This document shows, piece by piece, positions 53,345-61,380 of a stretch of 64,000 nt of DNA (position 1 is the first letter of the stretch; each line of letters starts with the position of its first letter). The position numbers and the translations under genes were made by a program. Below the pieces are notes generated by a model. The model saw only the letters and a list, made by a program, of their open reading frames with translations, searched no databases and was not told where the DNA came from. This stretch comes from Ruficoccus sp. ZRK36 (lineage in GTDB: Bacteria > Verrucomicrobiota > Verrucomicrobiia > Opitutales > Cerasicoccaceae), in the NCBI RefSeq assembly GCF_019603315.1, contig NZ_CP080649.1:1007501-1071500 (forward strand), given 5' to 3'.

Positions 53345-55453
53345 TTAGGAGTCAGAAGGTGTCGGACTGATGCTAATGCTGATGCAGGCGCTTTTGACCG
53401 GATTGACGAGGTAAATGCCGAGGCGCTTGGCTACGGCTTTCTCGGGACGGTAGAAGCCGTAGACACCGTCTTGCGCAAAGGCGAAGGGCTGCCCCTGCGT
53501 GTCGATGGTGACGTACAGCGATACCCCTTTATCGGTCACTTTTACGGTAGCGTTATCGAGAATCTCGAATGTGCCACGTGTGATCAGGGCGGTGGAAAAG
53601 TTCTGCGGTTGTGAGTAGGTCACGCAGTCGGTCAGGGTGATTGCGCCGGAGCCGCTTTTACCGGGCCGCTCATAGCGCATCGTGCGGATGAGCTGATCCA
53701 GGTCGGGGGCTCGGTAGGCCTCGGTCAGGTCCACCGTGATCGTGTCGGTCTGGTCGCCGCGTACAGCACTAATGACTTCCCCGCTGGCCTCGGGGCCGGA
53801 CTTCTGCATGCGATTGGCGACGAGCGGCACAGGGTGACCGTAGGAGTTGTTCAGCGCGACATCGTAGCGCTGGGGGCTGAAGGACTTGGCCGTGTAGCGC
53901 TCCATGCCGGGGTCGAGCAGCACGGGTACGCCTTTGTAGACGATGACGTAGCTGCCGATGTCATTGTGGTTATGGGATTCGCCGTTGTTGCTGATGCGCA
54001 TCGCCATGCTCATGGCGGGGGCATCGGTCTGGCCGGGACGGAAGATGTACAGCTCGCTCTCCGGGAACCAGGTACGCAGGGCCGGGTCGTCGGTGATGCT
54101 GGCCTGGGCGTTAAACCCTTCCACCGGCTCGGTGTCTTCTCCGAAGCTGCGGACAATTAGCGAATAAGCCTGAGCGCCGAGCGGGTGGGTAGAGCCGGTT
54201 TCGATTTGTCCAAATTGAGCGGGATCGTTACCGGGGAGGCCGTAGCGCAGGGCCGAGAAATTGAGGAGGCTCTGGCTGGGTTTTCCGTTCGCAGACTGGT
54301 CGCCAAAGGCTCCGTAGACGCGGTCGGAGATTTCCAGACTGATGGGTGCCTGGCTGATGCGGAAGACCTTTTCATCGTCGAGCAGGTCGATGGCTCCGCC
54401 GGTGGAGCGGCGGATGATCTCGCTGGCGTACAGGAAGTGGGAAAAACCGTAACTCCAGTAGCCGACGCCTTCCTCGCTGACACCCTCCTCGGTGAAGCTG
54501 CCGATATAGCGGCCCAGGATCACCTCGGCGTCTGCGATAAACTCGGCCCGTACCATCGGGTCCAGATCCAGCGTCAGCGCTGCACCGGTGACCGCGCCGC
54601 CGCAGACGGCGGTCCAGTTGTTGGGCTTGGTCATCCAGCCGGGTACTTTTCCGGTGCGGATAGCGTTCAGGTAGGGATTGAGGACACGGCGCTCGATCTC
54701 GGTCTTGGTGCGGGCGCGCAGATCGCTCGGGAGCTCATCGGCGAGCCAGTAGTCAATGGTGGCCAGCGTCCATGCCAGCTGGCAGGAAGCGAGCTCGACC
54801 ACGAATTTTTTCCCCTCAAAGACGTCCATGGTCTTACCGTGCGCGGGAACGCTCCAGCTGCCCTGGTCGAGGATGGCGGTCAGGTTTTCCTCAATGGCAG
54901 GGAGGAAGCGGCCCTTGTACTCCAGCGCTTCACCCAGCGCGAGGTCGCGCAGGCGGTTGTAGCGGGAGCTGGAGGCATTCTGATAGGCGACACGGTCACC
55001 TGTCTTATCGTACTGCTGCCACAGCTCTGCCGTGAGCGGTACGATGGGAGATTTAAGAGCTTTTTCCGCCTTGGCGATCAGGTCTTTGGCTTGCGGCTGA
55101 GCAGCGAACTTATCCCAGACCTGGCGGTCACTGGCCGGAGCACCCACGCCGACTGGTTCCTTTGTCAGCAGCTTGGCGATCTTCTCGATTTCAGCACGCT
55201 TGGGGGCTGGCGGGGGAGGTAGCCGCTTGTGCTGGCGGTTGGGCTTGGAGCCGTTCTCGTCACCGAGGGCGGGCAGGTAGGCAGGCGCTTCAAACTCGGC
55301 CACTTCGAGTGCCGTTTGCTGCGTTTCCGTGCTCTGGGCAACCGGGGTGACGGGAGCTGAATCGGGAGACTCAAGGGTATCCTTGGTGCAACCGGAGAGG
55401 ACTCCGAGGGTGGCCAGGGCCGTGGCGAAAAGCTTGGGGGAAAGGCGTGTCAT
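53345..55453 (-). CDS. Heparinase II/III-like lyase 2 (lipoprotein)
   Basis: A 702-aa protein with lipobox LSGC (Cys22). A Pro/Lys-rich linker (RQHKRLPPPPAPKRAEIE) leads to an alpha-toroid domain (about 110-390, WTLATIDYWLADELPSDLRA, VCGGAVTGAALTLDLDPM). The heparinase II/III beta domain (about 470-700) contains NNGESHNHNDIGSYVIVYKG and VPVLLDPGMERYTAKSF, with the HNHND metal/catalytic block. It differs clearly from lyase 1. Encoded 22 nt after the sulfatase, so the two enzymes act together. Confidence 0.87.
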   Translation of the reverse strand: MTRLSPKLFATALATLGVLSGCTKDTLESPDSAPVTPVAQSTETQQTALEVAEFEAPAYLPALGDENGSKPNRQHKRLPPPPAPKRAEIEKIAKLLTKEPVGVGAPASDRQVWDKFAAQPQAKDLIAKAEKALKSPIVPLTAELWQQYDKTGDRVAYQNASSSRYNRLRDLALGEALEYKGRFLPAIEENLTAILDQGSWSVPAHGKTMDVFEGKKFVVELASCQLAWTLATIDYWLADELPSDLRARTKTEIERRVLNPYLNAIRTGKVPGWMTKPNNWTAVCGGAVTGAALTLDLDPMVRAEFIADAEVILGRYIGSFTEEGVSEEGVGYWSYGFSHFLYASEIIRRSTGGAIDLLDDEKVFRISQAPISLEISDRVYGAFGDQSANGKPSQSLLNFSALRYGLPGNDPAQFGQIETGSTHPLGAQAYSLIVRSFGEDTEPVEGFNAQASITDDPALRTWFPESELYIFRPGQTDAPAMSMAMRISNNGESHNHNDIGSYVIVYKGVPVLLDPGMERYTAKSFSPQRYDVALNNSYGHPVPLVANRMQKSGPEASGEVISAVRGDQTDTITVDLTEAYRAPDLDQLIRTMRYERPGKSGSGAITLTDCVTYSQPQNFSTALITRGTFEILDNATVKVTDKGVSLYVTIDTQGQPFAFAQDGVYGFYRPEKAVAKRLGIYLVNPVKSACISISISPTPSDS

Positions 55454-55474: not shown

Positions 55475-56929
55475 TTATTTGCTCTGAGTCGGCAGGGGCC
55501 ACTGCTCATTGAGCTGGGCAAGGAGCTGAGCCTGGACGTCGGCGTAAGCCGGGTCGCCAGCGAGGTTTTTGATCTCGGGCTCGGGCAGGGAGTAGTCGTA
55601 CAGCTCGATGGCGAGAACCTCGCCCGTGTGGGCATCCCACCAGCGGTTCAGCCGGTAGTCACCACTGCGGAGGCTGCGGCCCTCGATGGAGCCGTCCCAG
55701 TTCATGGCGGCGTTTTTACCGCCCTTGCTGCGCAGGACTTCCGTGTAGGCGTAGTCCTTACCGGAGGCACCCTTGTTGGTCATGAGCGGGAGCAGGCTCT
55801 TGCCTTCCAGCTGCGGGGGGTGGGGCAGCTCGAGGAAGTCGAGTACTGTCGGGTAGATGTCGAGCAGCTCGACCGGCTGGTCGATGCGCAGGGGCAGGGC
55901 CTTGTCGCCGGGCATGTAAATAATGAGCGGGACGGCGCAGGTGGTTTCAAAGAGGGCCGACTTGTCCCACTGTCCGTTTTCACCCACATGGAAGCCATGG
56001 TCGGCGCTGAAGATGACCAGCGTATCGTCGTCCAGGTTGAGCTCTTTGAGCGTGTCCATCACCTTACCGACAAGCGCATCCACATAGGTGGCCGAGGCGT
56101 AGTGCCCGAGCAGTTGGTCGTAGTCACGCTCATAGTTTTTATCGCCGGGCTTGGGGGAGGCGGTGCGATGGCTCTTAAGGGCCAACTCGGGCGCGTCCTC
56201 GGGGTATCCGCCGGGGCCGGGGAAGGACAACTCTTTATCCGCGTACATGTCGAAGTACTTCTTCGGGGCGGTAAAGGGGCGGTGTGGGCGCTGATACCCG
56301 ATATAGAGGAAGAAGGGCTCGTCCTTGAGCTCGTGAATGACCTCGATGGCGCGATCGGTTACACGGCCATCGGGGTAGGCATTGTCGGGGACATCGGCAG
56401 CCTCGGTCAGCGGCCCTCTGTTAAACCAGCCGCGTTTGCCTGCTTTGGAGTTTTTAATGAAGATCTCGCTGTTTTCGGGCAGGGCGTATTGCTCGGGGCC
56501 TTTGGCCTCGCCAAGGTCATCGCGGGACCATGAGGCGGGATCGTGCGGGCCGTAGGTCTTTCCCAGTCCGATCGAGGTGTACCCAAACTGCTGCACGTAC
56601 TGCGGAAGGGTCTGTACGTCCGGGTGGTAGTTCCGGAAATAGGAGCGACGGTAGTTGTTGTCGCGGGGGCCGGCTTCGTCGGGGCGCATGCCGGTCATGA
56701 TGCTGGCCCGCGAAGGGGTGCAGATCGTGGCCTGCGCGTAGGCGTGCTCAAAGAGAGCGCCTTCGGAGGCAAGGTTGTCGAGGTTGGGGGAGATAACATC
56801 CCCGCCATAGCACTCCAGGCGTGGGCTAAGGTCGTCGGCGAGGACGAAGATGACGTTCTTGGCTGATGCACTCTGGGAACCCAGAGCACAGGCCAGGGCG
56901 AGCGTGGCGAAACGCGGAAAATTTTTCAT
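55475..56929 (-). CDS. Sulfatase, iduronate-2-sulfatase type
   Basis: A 484-aa exported sulfatase. Signal peptide FATLALACALGSQSASA; Asp32-Asp33 (VLADDLSP) bind calcium; the formylglycine site is CTPSRAS (Cys70); then TGMRPDEAGPRDNNYRRSYF, the lysine/histidine region and SADHGFHVGENGQWDKSAL. This arrangement is that of iduronate-2-sulfatase-like enzymes. The start is set at 56929 because the signal peptide begins there. Upstream in-frame codons to 57157 overlap the lacI 2 end and are non-coding in character. It removes sulfate from the polysaccharide that lyase 2 cuts. Confidence 0.9.
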   Translation of the reverse strand: MKNFPRFATLALACALGSQSASAKNVIFVLADDLSPRLECYGGDVISPNLDNLASEGALFEHAYAQATICTPSRASIMTGMRPDEAGPRDNNYRRSYFRNYHPDVQTLPQYVQQFGYTSIGLGKTYGPHDPASWSRDDLGEAKGPEQYALPENSEIFIKNSKAGKRGWFNRGPLTEAADVPDNAYPDGRVTDRAIEVIHELKDEPFFLYIGYQRPHRPFTAPKKYFDMYADKELSFPGPGGYPEDAPELALKSHRTASPKPGDKNYERDYDQLLGHYASATYVDALVGKVMDTLKELNLDDDTLVIFSADHGFHVGENGQWDKSALFETTCAVPLIIYMPGDKALPLRIDQPVELLDIYPTVLDFLELPHPPQLEGKSLLPLMTNKGASGKDYAYTEVLRSKGGKNAAMNWDGSIEGRSLRSGDYRLNRWWDAHTGEVLAIELYDYSLPEPEIKNLAGDPAYADVQAQLLAQLNEQWPLPTQSK

Positions 56930-56992
56930 GGGGTTGGTTAGCGGGATAAGCCGTGTGTGTGTCAATGCCCGTAAAATATATCGCATAAAGCC

Positions 56993-57049
56993 AACCCGCA
57001 TCAATTGAAGGGAGGCTACATACTTATGAAACCGCTTTTGATGCGGGTT
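56993..57049. promoter_or_regulatory. 12-bp inverted repeat between lacI 2 and the sulfatase
   Basis: AACCCGCATCAA (56993-57004) and TTGATGCGGGTT (57038-57049) are exact complements, separated by 33 nt. The site lies within the 142-nt gap between the lacI 2 stop and the sulfatase start. It could be an RNA hairpin limiting read-through or a binding site. Confidence 0.5.
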
Positions 57050-58127: not shown

Positions 58128-58205
58128 GCGTGTGAATACGGGTGAGTGCCAGCGCGTCGGAACGATTAATGATTCTATGCCTCATGGCAATCCATGCAAC
58201 CCTAA

Positions 58206-58283
58206 TCCATATGTATGGAGCTGCGGGGGCATAGACACCGTATTGAGCCTGATATAGATTCGGAGGCGTATCATTAATGGTAC
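58206..58283. promoter_or_regulatory. Dual inverted-repeat boxes, PEP-CTERM C1
   Basis: Box 1 TCCATATGTATGGA at 58206-58219 (6-bp arms TCCATA/TATGGA) and box 2 GTATCATTAATGGTAC at 58268-58283. The starts are 62 nt apart. The gene starts 39 nt after box 2. The pair sits in the divergent lacI 2 / C1 region, so it could control both. Confidence 0.7.
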
Positions 58284-58321
58284 GAAACCCACGCTTAAAC
58301 CCCTCAAAAAAAGATACTATT

Positions 58322-59188
58322 ATGACCCCAAGAACCCTTGTACTCGCGCTGGCATCCCTCACAGCCGCCAGTTTTGTCCAGGCACAGTGGACAGATCTCG
58401 TCTCTGATGATTTCGAAAGCTACACCTTCGGTGAGCAGCCCACTGGTAACTGGTATCGGCTTGGAAACAATGCCTCCTCTGGCTCGAATGAGTTGATCAC
58501 GGATACCGATGGCGGTATCGCCAGCGCCTCCGGGCTGGACCTTCCCGGCTCTGGCGCAGGCCATGGCAATGCCCTTTACTTTTATGATAACAACACCAAG
58601 GGCTCTGCGCGTGCCGGTCTGAATCTGGACCCGACCGGCAGCTCGAACTACGACATCGTGCGCATGAGCGTTGATTTCAAATTTGATGCGATTGGGTCTA
58701 CCTCGACTGGTTTTGGTTTCATCGGATTGGTCCCGGCTGACTTTACTGCCTTTGGAGGGGCAAAGTCCACGGCTCTGGCGATTAACCTTAGGTACGATGC
58801 CTCCCTGAGCTGGAGTGGCGGTAGCATCGATCTCAATGATACCAACTGGCACTCGCTGGAAGTCGTGGCTAACCGTACGGACGGCTCCTTTTCTTACACG
58901 GCCTTAGACGGTAGCGGGTCAACCAGTATCGACGCCAATAGCTACGACCTGTATGTCGACGGGGCGCGTGTTGGTTCCTCTGTCGCTATGGTGGTGCAGG
59001 ATGACGACAGCATCCTGGAGATGGGGCGCTTCGGAATAAATACTTATAGCGGGTCAGAAGGGGTCGAGTTTACCATCGACAATCTGAAGACTTACACCGC
59101 CCCCGTTCCCGAGCCTGCCGAATCGGCTGTTCTGCTGGGAGCCGTGGTACTGCTGGCAAGCTGCCTCCTGCGCCGCAAGCGCGCGTAA
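58322..59188 (+). CDS. PEP-CTERM surface protein, paralog C1
   Basis: A 288-aa secreted protein. Signal peptide LVLALASLTAASFVQA, then WTDLVSDDFESYTFGEQPTG opening a LamG-like jelly roll (SNYDIVRMSVDFKFDAIGST, NSYDLYVDGARVGSSVAM). The sorting tail is VPEPAESAVLLGAVVLLAS then CLLRRKRA. C1, C2 and C3 are tandem paralogs with the same promoter boxes. AACCCCTCAA lies 14 nt before the start, without a GGAGG site. Confidence 0.88.
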   Translation: MTPRTLVLALASLTAASFVQAQWTDLVSDDFESYTFGEQPTGNWYRLGNNASSGSNELITDTDGGIASASGLDLPGSGAGHGNALYFYDNNTKGSARAGLNLDPTGSSNYDIVRMSVDFKFDAIGSTSTGFGFIGLVPADFTAFGGAKSTALAINLRYDASLSWSGGSIDLNDTNWHSLEVVANRTDGSFSYTALDGSGSTSIDANSYDLYVDGARVGSSVAMVVQDDDSILEMGRFGINTYSGSEGVEFTIDNLKTYTAPVPEPAESAVLLGAVVLLASCLLRRKRA

Positions 59189-59268
59189 TCCTGCATGTTT
59201 TTTGGCATCATCCGACGAGGTAGATCCCGTCGGATGATGATAAATTACGTGTCCATGGGATAATTGGA

Positions 59269-59346
59269 TCCATATGTATGGAGAGGACTCGTCGTGGACA
59301 GGTAAGGGCAGCGTAGCTAAGTTCGTCCATGTATCATCACTGGTAC
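59269..59346. promoter_or_regulatory. Dual inverted-repeat boxes, PEP-CTERM C2
   Basis: Box 1 TCCATATGTATGGA at 59269-59282, identical to C1. Box 2 GTATCATCACTGGTAC at 59331-59346, again 62 nt between box starts and 38 nt to the start codon at 59385. Confidence 0.7.
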
Positions 59347-59384
59347 AAAACCATGCTTAAAACCCCTCAAAAGAAGATACTATC

Positions 59385-60251
59385 ATGACCCCCAAGACCC
59401 TTGTATTCGCACTGGCATCGCTCACGACCGCCAGTTTTGCCCAAGCCCAGTGGACAGACCTCGTCTCCGATGATTTCGAAAGCTACACCTTCGGCGAGCA
59501 GCCCACTGGTAACTGGTATCGGCTGGGAAACAATTTCTCCACTAGCTCCAACGAGTTGATCACGGATACCGATGGCGGTATTGCCCCAGACTCCGGCCTG
59601 GATCTTCCCGGCACCGGGGCAGGCCATGGCAAGGCCCTATACTTTTATGATTACGGTGGTGGCTCTGCACGTGCCGGGCTGAACCTGGACCCGACGGGCA
59701 GCTCAAACTACGACATCGTTCGTATGAGCGTTGATTTCAAGTTTGATACGATTGGGACCAGCTCGGCTGGTTTTGGTTTTATCGGACTTGTCCCTGCCGA
59801 CTATGTTACCTTCGGAGGGGCAGACTCTACGGCGCTGTCGATTAACCTTAAGTATAATGCCTCTCTGAGCTGGTCTGGTGGTAGCCTCTCGCTCAATGAT
59901 ACCAACTGGCATTCGATGGAAATTGTGGCCAACCGCACGGACGGTTCCTTTTCCTATGACGCTCTGGACGGTAGCGGAACAGTGAGCATCGACGCCAATA
60001 GCTACGACCTGTATGTCGACGGGGCGCGTGTTGGTTCCTCTGTCGCTATGATTGTGCAGGATGACGAAAGCATCCTGGAGATGGGGCGCTTTGGGTTGAA
60101 TACTTACAGTGGGTCAACAGGGGTCGAGTTCACCATCGATAACCTGAAAAGCTATACCGCCCCCGTTCCCGAGCCCGCCGAATCAGCTGCGCTGCTGGGA
60201 GCCGTGGTCCTGTTGGCAAGCTGCCTCCTGCGCCGCCGCAAGCGCGCGTAA
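59385..60251 (+). CDS. PEP-CTERM surface protein, paralog C2
   Basis: A 288-aa close paralog of C1, collinear over its full length. Signal peptide LVFALASLTTASFAQA; shared segments DFESYTFGEQPTGNWYRLG and NSYDLYVDGARVGSSVAM; tail VPEPAESAALLGAVVLLAS then CLLRRRKRA. Most changes fall in surface-type Ser/Thr/Gly stretches. An inverted repeat with arms TCATCCGACG/CGTCGGATGA (about 59210-59238), without a T run, lies between C1 and C2. Confidence 0.88.
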   Translation: MTPKTLVFALASLTTASFAQAQWTDLVSDDFESYTFGEQPTGNWYRLGNNFSTSSNELITDTDGGIAPDSGLDLPGTGAGHGKALYFYDYGGGSARAGLNLDPTGSSNYDIVRMSVDFKFDTIGTSSAGFGFIGLVPADYVTFGGADSTALSINLKYNASLSWSGGSLSLNDTNWHSMEIVANRTDGSFSYDALDGSGTVSIDANSYDLYVDGARVGSSVAMIVQDDESILEMGRFGLNTYSGSTGVEFTIDNLKSYTAPVPEPAESAALLGAVVLLASCLLRRRKRA

Positions 60252-60398
60252 ATCGGCTCTGCTTTTGACATGCTCCGGCGGGGGCGACTCCCCGTCGGAT
60301 GCGTGCCCAAGCATCAGGCTCATATCCCACACCGTTTAGATCGGTATGACAAAACTCCGTCTGATGAAGATAAACTACGAGCTCCTGCGATGGGATGA

Positions 60399-60476
60399 TC
60401 CATATGTATGGAAGGTCCATGCCGTGGACAGGTAAAGGCAGCTCAGCTAAGTTCCCTCATGTACCAGCGCTGGTAC
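60399..60476. promoter_or_regulatory. Dual inverted-repeat boxes, PEP-CTERM C3
   Basis: Box 1 TCCATATGTATGGA at 60399-60412, identical to the other two. Box 2 GTACCAGCGCTGGTAC at 60461-60476 is a perfect 16-bp palindrome and probably closest to the ideal operator. Spacing between starts is again 62 nt; the gene starts at 60517. Confidence 0.72.
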
Positions 60477-60516: not shown

Positions 60517-61380
60517 ATGACCCCCAAGACCCTTGTATTCGCACTGGCATCCCTCACAGCCGCCAGTTTTGCCCAGGCGCAGTGGACATCCCTGGCCTCA
60601 GATAATTTTGAAAGCTACACCTTCGGTGAGCAGCCCGGTGGCAACTGGTATAAGCTCGGTAGCAATGCCTCTTCTGGCGCAAATGAGTTGATTACTGATG
60701 CATCTGGCGGCACTGCTTCTGCTTCAGGGATCGTCCTCCCTGCTACGGGTACAGATAAGGCGTTGTACTTCTATGACAATGCCACCCCGAGCACGTCCCG
60801 AGCCGGTCTGAATCTGGATACCAGTGGCAGCTCGAACTACGATGTTGTCCGAGTGAGTCTCGACTTCAATTTTGCCACTGTCGATTTGGAGAATACAGGA
60901 TCTTTTGGCATTATCTGTCTGACGTCGGCCGGAAATACGTCTTTCGGTGGCCCGTTAAATCAGGCGATGTCGATTACCCTTCGGTACGACGGTACTCTTG
61001 CTTGGTCGGGAGGTTCACTGGCCATCGCTGATACCAACTGGCACTCGATGGAGATCGTGGCCAATGAAACTGATTCGTCGTTTTCCTATGATGCCCTTGA
61101 TAGCAGTGGTCAGACGAGCATAGATGCTAATAGCTTTGACCTCTATGTCGATGGTGCCCGAGTTGGCTCATCCATCGCTTTGATTCAGCAAGATGACGAC
61201 AGTTATATCGAGTTGGGGCGCTTCGGTGTGAACACTTACAGCACCGCCGTTGGAGCCGACTTCATGATCGATAACCTGGAGACCTTCACCGCGCCCATTC
61301 CCGAGCCCGCCGAGTCGGCTGCGATGCTCGGTGCCGTGGCTCTGCTGGTTGGTTTCCTCCTGCGTCGTCGCAAGCTTTAG
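60517..61380 (+). CDS. PEP-CTERM surface protein, paralog C3
   Basis: A 287-aa paralog, more diverged than C1 and C2 are from each other. Signal peptide LVFALASLTAASFAQA; DNFESYTFGEQPGGNWYKLG; NSFDLYVDGARVGSSIAL; tail IPEPAESAAMLGAVALLVG then FLLRRRKL. Several Gly/Asp positions of C1 and C2 are replaced, and one loop is shorter (SGIVLPATGTDKALYFYDN). Followed by a strong GC stem with a TTCG loop at 61412-61439 that has no T run. Confidence 0.88.
   Translation: MTPKTLVFALASLTAASFAQAQWTSLASDNFESYTFGEQPGGNWYKLGSNASSGANELITDASGGTASASGIVLPATGTDKALYFYDNATPSTSRAGLNLDTSGSSNYDVVRVSLDFNFATVDLENTGSFGIICLTSAGNTSFGGPLNQAMSITLRYDGTLAWSGGSLAIADTNWHSMEIVANETDSSFSYDALDSSGQTSIDANSFDLYVDGARVGSSIALIQQDDDSYIELGRFGVNTYSTAVGADFMIDNLETFTAPIPEPAESAAMLGAVALLVGFLLRRRKL

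Follow-up and report, generated by a model that had tools for sequence, protein, structure and literature searches.

Three tandemly duplicated genes for PEP-CTERM-type secreted proteins (C1, C2 and C3) lie divergent from the gene of a LacI-family regulator, LacI-2, in Ruficoccus sp. ZRK36, and raise the question of whether the short elements repeated in their promoters serve that regulator. A sequence-only reading of a 64,000-nt stretch of contig NZ_CP080649.1 (hereafter the window; the genome measures 3.76 Mb) had described one box common to the three promoters and a second box downstream of it, next to lacI, and had envisaged looping or the binding of two regulators. Its description of the elements was accurate: box 1, TCCATATGTATGGA, is the same in all three promoters, box 2 has the form GTAYCANNNNTGGTAC each time, its dyad being perfect in C3, the box starts are always 62 nt apart (centres 63 bp apart), and the genes adjoin the divergent lacI (Table 1). 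LacI-2 contains both a LacI HTH and a periplasmic-binding-protein-like sensor domain.

Table 1 Features of the lacI-2 locus, in window coordinates
Feature	Position	Strand	Remarks
Lyase-like protein behind the sulfatase	53345–55453	-	Weak Hepar_II_III_C match (E 5.8e-5), just under cut-off
Sulfatase, predicted regulon member	55475–56929	-	PF00884, E 9e-48
Predicted sulfatase core promoter, TTGATG-N18-TATATT	56975–57004	-	12 bp after its box; consensus scan
Fourth box-1 copy, TTCATAAGTATGTA	57017–57030	-	Before the sulfatase gene behind lacI
LacI-2, LacI-family regulator, 351 aa	57072–58127	-	PF00356 and PF13377 over cut-off
Possible lacI promoter, TTGCAT-N16-TAGAAT	58172–58199	-	Read from sequence
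Box 1 of C1, TCCATATGTATGGA	58206–58219	+	Predicted LacI-2 operator; lies between the promoters of C1 and lacI, which diverge
Predicted C1 core promoter, TAGACA-N17-TAGATT	58232–58260	+	12 bp after box 1; consensus scan
Box 2 of C1, form GTAYCANNNNTGGTAC	58268–58283	+	RNA hairpin CGUAUCA-UUAA-UGGUACG at predicted +1
C1, PEP-CTERM-type secreted protein	58322–59188	+	VPEPAES, a hydrophobic stretch and an RRKR tail at the C terminus, read from the sequence
Strong hairpin between C1 and C2	59205–59241	+	z -5.8; no T run after it; likely C1 3' end
Box 1 of C2, TCCATATGTATGGA	59269–59282	+	
Predicted C2 core promoter, TGGACA-N17-TAAGTT	59295–59323	+	
Box 2 of C2, form GTAYCANNNNTGGTAC	59331–59346	+	RNA hairpin UGUAUCA-UCAC-UGGUACA
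C2, PEP-CTERM-type paralog	59385–60251	+	Protein 86% identical to C1
Strong hairpin between C2 and C3	60268–60305	+	z -3.4; likely C2 3' end
Box 1 of C3, TCCATATGTATGGA	60399–60412	+	
Predicted C3 core promoter, TGGACA-N17-TAAGTT	60425–60453	+	
Box 2 of C3, form GTAYCANNNNTGGTAC	60461–60476	+	RNA hairpin UGUACCA-GCGC-UGGUACA
C3, PEP-CTERM-type paralog	60517–61380	+	Protein 67% identical to C1

Box 1 in the window and in related genomes

The general form of box 1 is TYCATAWGTATGRA, 14 bp long. Allowing up to three mismatches to TCCATATGTATGGA, nine matches were present in the window against 2.3 expected, a number reached by none of 100 shuffles. The copy before the sulfatase gene had been overlooked by the earlier reading; with it, box copies flank lacI at a distance of about 1.2 kb. 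The exact 14-mer TCCATATGTATGGA had no copy beyond its three window sites in the whole 3.76-Mb genome, and the exact pattern TNCATAWGTATGNA had four matches in this genome, all at the lacI-2 locus. Box 2 showed no genome-wide enrichment: with one mismatch allowed, it matched at 13 places, the reversed control at 44. The centre of box 1 is TG or AG in the LacI-2 clade and not the usual CG, which is present in two of the three sites at a paralogous locus. A perfect 12-bp inverted repeat, AACCCGCATCAA / TTGATGCGGGTT (56993–57004 and 57038–57049, 33 nt apart), encloses the sulfatase box and includes the sulfatase -35 hexamer TTGATG.

As duplication could explain much of the likeness of the boxes within the window, independent sequences were needed. 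The ZRK36 genome encodes two close paralogs of LacI-2 (62% and 58% identical); relatives are also found elsewhere, a search across 373 genomes of the order having returned them from 6. Four relatives, namely Cerasicoccus maritimus (L042), C. frondis (L043), the metagenome-assembled genome MAG 5_bin.45 (L044) and G030 (L107), the last from another family, have a cassette in common that comprises lacI, one or more divergent PEP-CTERM genes, and sulfatase and/or lyase-like genes behind lacI, along with further sulfatases, a pseudopilin-like gene and a sodium:solute symporter; no other regulator genes were seen within its shared part. The motif CATAWGTATG occurs exactly twice per 13-kb locus in both Cerasicoccus species and the MAG and three times in G030, and each copy precedes either the divergent PEP-CTERM gene(s) or the gene behind lacI. 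All four relatives hold a box copy at the position behind lacI that corresponds to 57017–57030 of the window. The two tandem PEP-CTERM genes of G030 have a box-1 copy each, one being the identical 14-mer, and four matches at up to two mismatches were found at this locus against 0.08 expected. The DNA around box 1 has diverged between loci while the box stays.

Exact matches to TNCATAWGTATGNA numbered 11 in five relatives, nine of them at the lacI locus; the extra ones, on G007 contig 7 and G001 contig 35, had no clear link to the regulon. No recognisable box copy was found near the LacI-2 relative of G001 (52% identical) or near the paralog at 2952091 of the ZRK36 genome, and the wider search of the 373 genomes returned no further LacI-2 relatives in the family of G030. 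Given the near-exclusive recurrence of box 1 beside LacI-2 orthologs, before PEP-CTERM and sulfatase/lyase genes and with no other regulator gene seen in the shared part of the cassette, it is very probably the LacI-2 operator. The link to LacI-2 drawn by the sequence-only reading is thus, for box 1, strongly supported by comparative evidence, the box travelling with LacI-2 orthologs in five genomes and two families and on both flanks of lacI.

Position of box 1 relative to predicted promoters

A promoter-like element, TRGACA-N17-TARRTT, also missed in the earlier reading, is conserved between boxes 1 and 2. In 16/16 sites of the clade, a -35-like hexamer begins at a gap of 11 or 12 bp from the box, a regularity that none of 2000 shuffles matched, although this is no strict probability since the sites are related by descent. 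With four sites at two other LacI loci included, the gap to the predicted -35 hexamer is 11–12 bp in all 20. The hexamer is of the type TRGACA at most PEP-CTERM genes and TTGNNN at most sulfatase/lyase genes; the match is poor in MAG_PEP, and predicted -10 hexamers are mostly weak. An independent consensus scan picked 58232–58260 and 57004–56975 as promoter-like, with seven matches against 3.2 expected, in itself weak evidence. The predicted promoters are sigma-70-like and would place the centre of box 1 near -54; none of the 20 sites lies over a predicted -10 or +1. Towards lacI, only 6 bp separate the C1 copy of box 1 from the -35-like hexamer of that gene, as is also the case in C. maritimus, C. 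frondis and at the paralogous locus, and not in the MAG or G030.

The constant short distance to the -35 and the lack of sites over the predicted -10 and +1 make activation the better guess, and if box 1 is indeed the LacI-2 operator, activation appears likely. CcpA of B. subtilis, a member of the LacI/GalR family, activates from sites upstream of the -35 (ackA, pta, ilvB) in a manner dependent on helix face, and represses from sites over the promoter (PMC3463425). Bound LacI-2 would most likely touch RNA polymerase and so activate promoters that are weak by themselves, in the way CcpA acts at ackA and pta. Most local LacI-family regulators have been described as repressors of sugar genes, and GalR-like regulators can repress from upstream sites too, so we can only infer the sign of regulation here. 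LacI-2 might accordingly sit on box 1 as a repressor relieved by sugar, acting from upstream either by inhibitory contact with RNA polymerase or through a loop joining the box copies on either side of lacI. That usual description of the family and the spacing of the two flanking operators fit such a repressor, but the strict 11–12 bp geometry, the absence of any overlap with a predicted -10 or +1 and promoters that seem weak unaided do not, and we consider it rather unlikely.

Box 2 and the 62-nt spacing

At the predicted +1, a small tetraloop hairpin is possible in C1–C3, in both Cerasicoccus species and at the paralog. Across C1–C3 it varies at two pairs, C-G giving way to U-A at the outer end and U-G to C-G further in. 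The hairpin reads UGUAUC-GAAC-GAUACG in C. frondis and GUAUC-AGUU-GAUAC in C. maritimus, and that of the paralog consists of CUG-GAAA-CAG plus further pairs, in a sequence unrelated to box 2. The MAG and G030 keep box 1, with box 2 missing or unrecognisable and no such hairpin, and the sulfatase site likewise has box 1 without box 2. The z-scores of the box-2 hairpins are modest (-1.0 to -2.7), for which reason any role of the hairpin is tentative, and no Rfam family matched. Of 29 other PEP-CTERM leaders checked for 5' hairpins, a few had one, with no clear general rule. Many PEP-CTERM leaders (C1–C3, L046–L057, L074–L103) are C-rich and G-poor (AACCCCTC, AACCCTCATATACCC) and have no clear Shine-Dalgarno sequence.

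Positions 58270–58281 of the C1 box 2 recur inverted, with 11 of 12 bases alike, in the lacI leader (58162–58173), a near-copy not found in Cerasicoccus, which we counted against the hairpin reading. A hairpin in the lacI leader itself (58160–58175) was considered and rejected: the dyad is present but is not formed in the RNA fold. On the whole, we find it reasonably probable that box 2 acts mainly as an RNA hairpin.

The earlier reading had held that the DNA between the boxes differs, leaving the two sites and their geometry as what is conserved. This fails within the window, where C2 and C3 share 35 of the 48 inter-box bases (73%) and only C1 differs (19/48 and 18/48 identical to C2 and C3, barely above shuffles). 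The shared 62-nt spacing is therefore largely a matter of common descent, and the three promoters, being duplicates (protein identities to C1 of 86% and 67%), do not amount to three independent observations of it. One might go further and suppose that nothing here is under selection and that the boxes are alike merely through recent duplication of the three genes, as the 73% identity of the C2 and C3 DNA between the boxes and protein identities of 67–86% would allow. For box 1 this is refuted by its retention in four other species and across two families, as well as at promoters within these loci that are not homologous to one another; it still applies in part to the 62-nt spacing, and as an account of the whole we regard it as highly improbable.

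A loop between paired operators would place boxes 1 and 2, which are 63 bp or six turns apart, on the same face of the helix, with LacI-2 or two regulators attached to them. It would account for the constant spacing in all three promoters, for the inverted 12-bp stretch of the C1 box 2 in the lacI leader (one mismatch), and for the similar dyads that C. maritimus and C. frondis have at much the same position. The spacing in C2 and C3, however, reflects shared descent; the half-sites in Cerasicoccus lie 2 bp closer (a gap of 2 bp versus 4 bp in the window, unlike one single operator), and the paralog sequence is unrelated. Box 1 also stands without box 2 in the MAG, in G030 and before the sulfatase, and the genome shows no enrichment of box 2. 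No second box at constant spacing was thus found in the relatives, its sequence and dyad spacing being different in Cerasicoccus and the box absent from the MAG and G030, and box 2 as a second LacI-2 operator was rejected for this loss and change. The partner that does keep a constant distance to box 1 is the -35-like hexamer and not box 2, which leaves looping or two regulators at the 62-nt geometry unsupported; we judge the paired arrangement improbable.

The model that we prefer, with a probability of roughly 0.7 resting chiefly on its operator part, combines box 1 as the LacI-2 operator, likely activation of the cassette and box 2 as an mRNA hairpin. Judged from the genomes compared, the locus is probably a conserved and activating local LacI regulon. 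LacI-2 would be the local regulator of a sulfated-polysaccharide cassette (sulfatases, the lyase-like protein and PEP-CTERM surface proteins) and would occupy box 1 upstream of every PEP-CTERM gene and of the sulfatase gene behind lacI, a sugar ligand presumably controlling its binding to DNA. Box 1 of C1, so close to the -35-like hexamer of lacI, would allow autoregulation, and box 2 may form a short 5'-terminal mRNA hairpin, perhaps protective, rather than a second operator.

Other LacI loci, known systems and significance

The paralog at 2008988 (62% identical) has the same layout and a related box with a shifted centre, ATACGTAT (sites TTAATAAGTATAAA, TTAATACGTATGCA and TGCATACGTATGTA), as expected if the site changes along with its regulator. 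Between this paralog and its sulfatase lie TGTTCAGGTAAACG / CGTTTACCTGAACA ends in inverted orientation, separated by about 140 bp (L104 6673–6826, near 2008700 of the genome), resembling a small mobile element. A paralog-type site, TTAATACGTATTGA, with TTGATC 12 bp further on, was seen at 3186288 (L132 1789–1802); it precedes a gene with an FLLAGQSNMAGRG motif, which may belong to the paralog regulon as a distant member.

Two LacI loci with PEP-CTERM genes (1807434 and 3049562), picked for having a box pair with the gap disregarded, have different 14-bp boxes flanking lacI (CTCTATAGWTAGAA; CTCTAATTGTAGAG and CTCTACTTGTATAG), and TTGNNN follows at a gap of 11 in 4/4 sites (3/5000 shuffles). 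Seven more LacI loci that have PEP-CTERM genes (L123–L129) yielded no convincing shared 14-mer. When LacI-2 relatives of the ZRK36 genome were counted at E up to 1e-40, 11 of 31 lay within 3 kb of a PEP-CTERM gene (for example at 3111983, 2733982 and 3012964), as against a mean of 2.95 and a maximum of 9 in 5000 random placements. This excess, together with the same geometry around different boxes at other LacI loci, tentatively suggests that LacI-type regulators of these Opitutales may have been duplicated with PEP-CTERM and sulfatase cassettes as dedicated activators, each with a private 14-bp operator 11–12 bp before the -35, such that each polysaccharide would switch on its own set of surface proteins.

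Local LacI-family regulons and autoregulation have been described in a survey in which Verrucomicrobia go unmentioned, and in which operators have a central CG for 1173 of 1303 regulators and another pair for 49 (PMC4052901). The predicted regulon resembles the local carbohydrate regulons of that survey in the placement of lacI beside its targets, the palindromic operator of even length, the sites on both lacI flanks and the carbohydrate-degradation genes; it differs in its 14-bp box, its TG/AG centre (CG being usual, not obligatory) and an operator always upstream of the -35. LacI-2 shares with CcpA at ackA, pta and ilvB the LacI/GalR-type protein and a predicted site upstream of the -35, but CcpA regulates globally, together with its partner HPr-Ser-P, whereas LacI-2 would be a local regulator, with activation presumed (PMC3463425). 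A common cis site before PEP-CTERM genes is also known from the PrsR/PrsK system, found in Proteobacteria only, which employs sigma-54 and an NtrC-like regulator at a -24(GG)/-12(GC) site with a PrsR motif, in contrast to the LacI-type site and sigma-70-like promoter seen here (PMC1569441). The box-2 hairpin, its role being tentative, would be a short 5'-leader hairpin like the mRNA-stabilising 5' stem-loops of recA in Acinetobacter and vacA in Helicobacter (PMC7509114); unlike these, it was not found in two related lineages and has no Rfam match.

Our literature search found no paper on the box-1 site or on LacI control of PEP-CTERM genes in Verrucomicrobiota, and the paper that defined PEP-CTERM left control outside Proteobacteria open (PMC1569441). 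The present analysis predicts a precise regulator–site pair for PEP-CTERM genes in Verrucomicrobiota, and would thereby tie PEP-CTERM surface proteins to the breakdown of sulfated polysaccharides. LacI-2 and its paralog, with the shifted centre of its box, would form a natural specificity pair for LacI recognition, and the promoter ruler of operator, 11–12 bp and -35 may be usable to predict more regulons in marine Opitutales.
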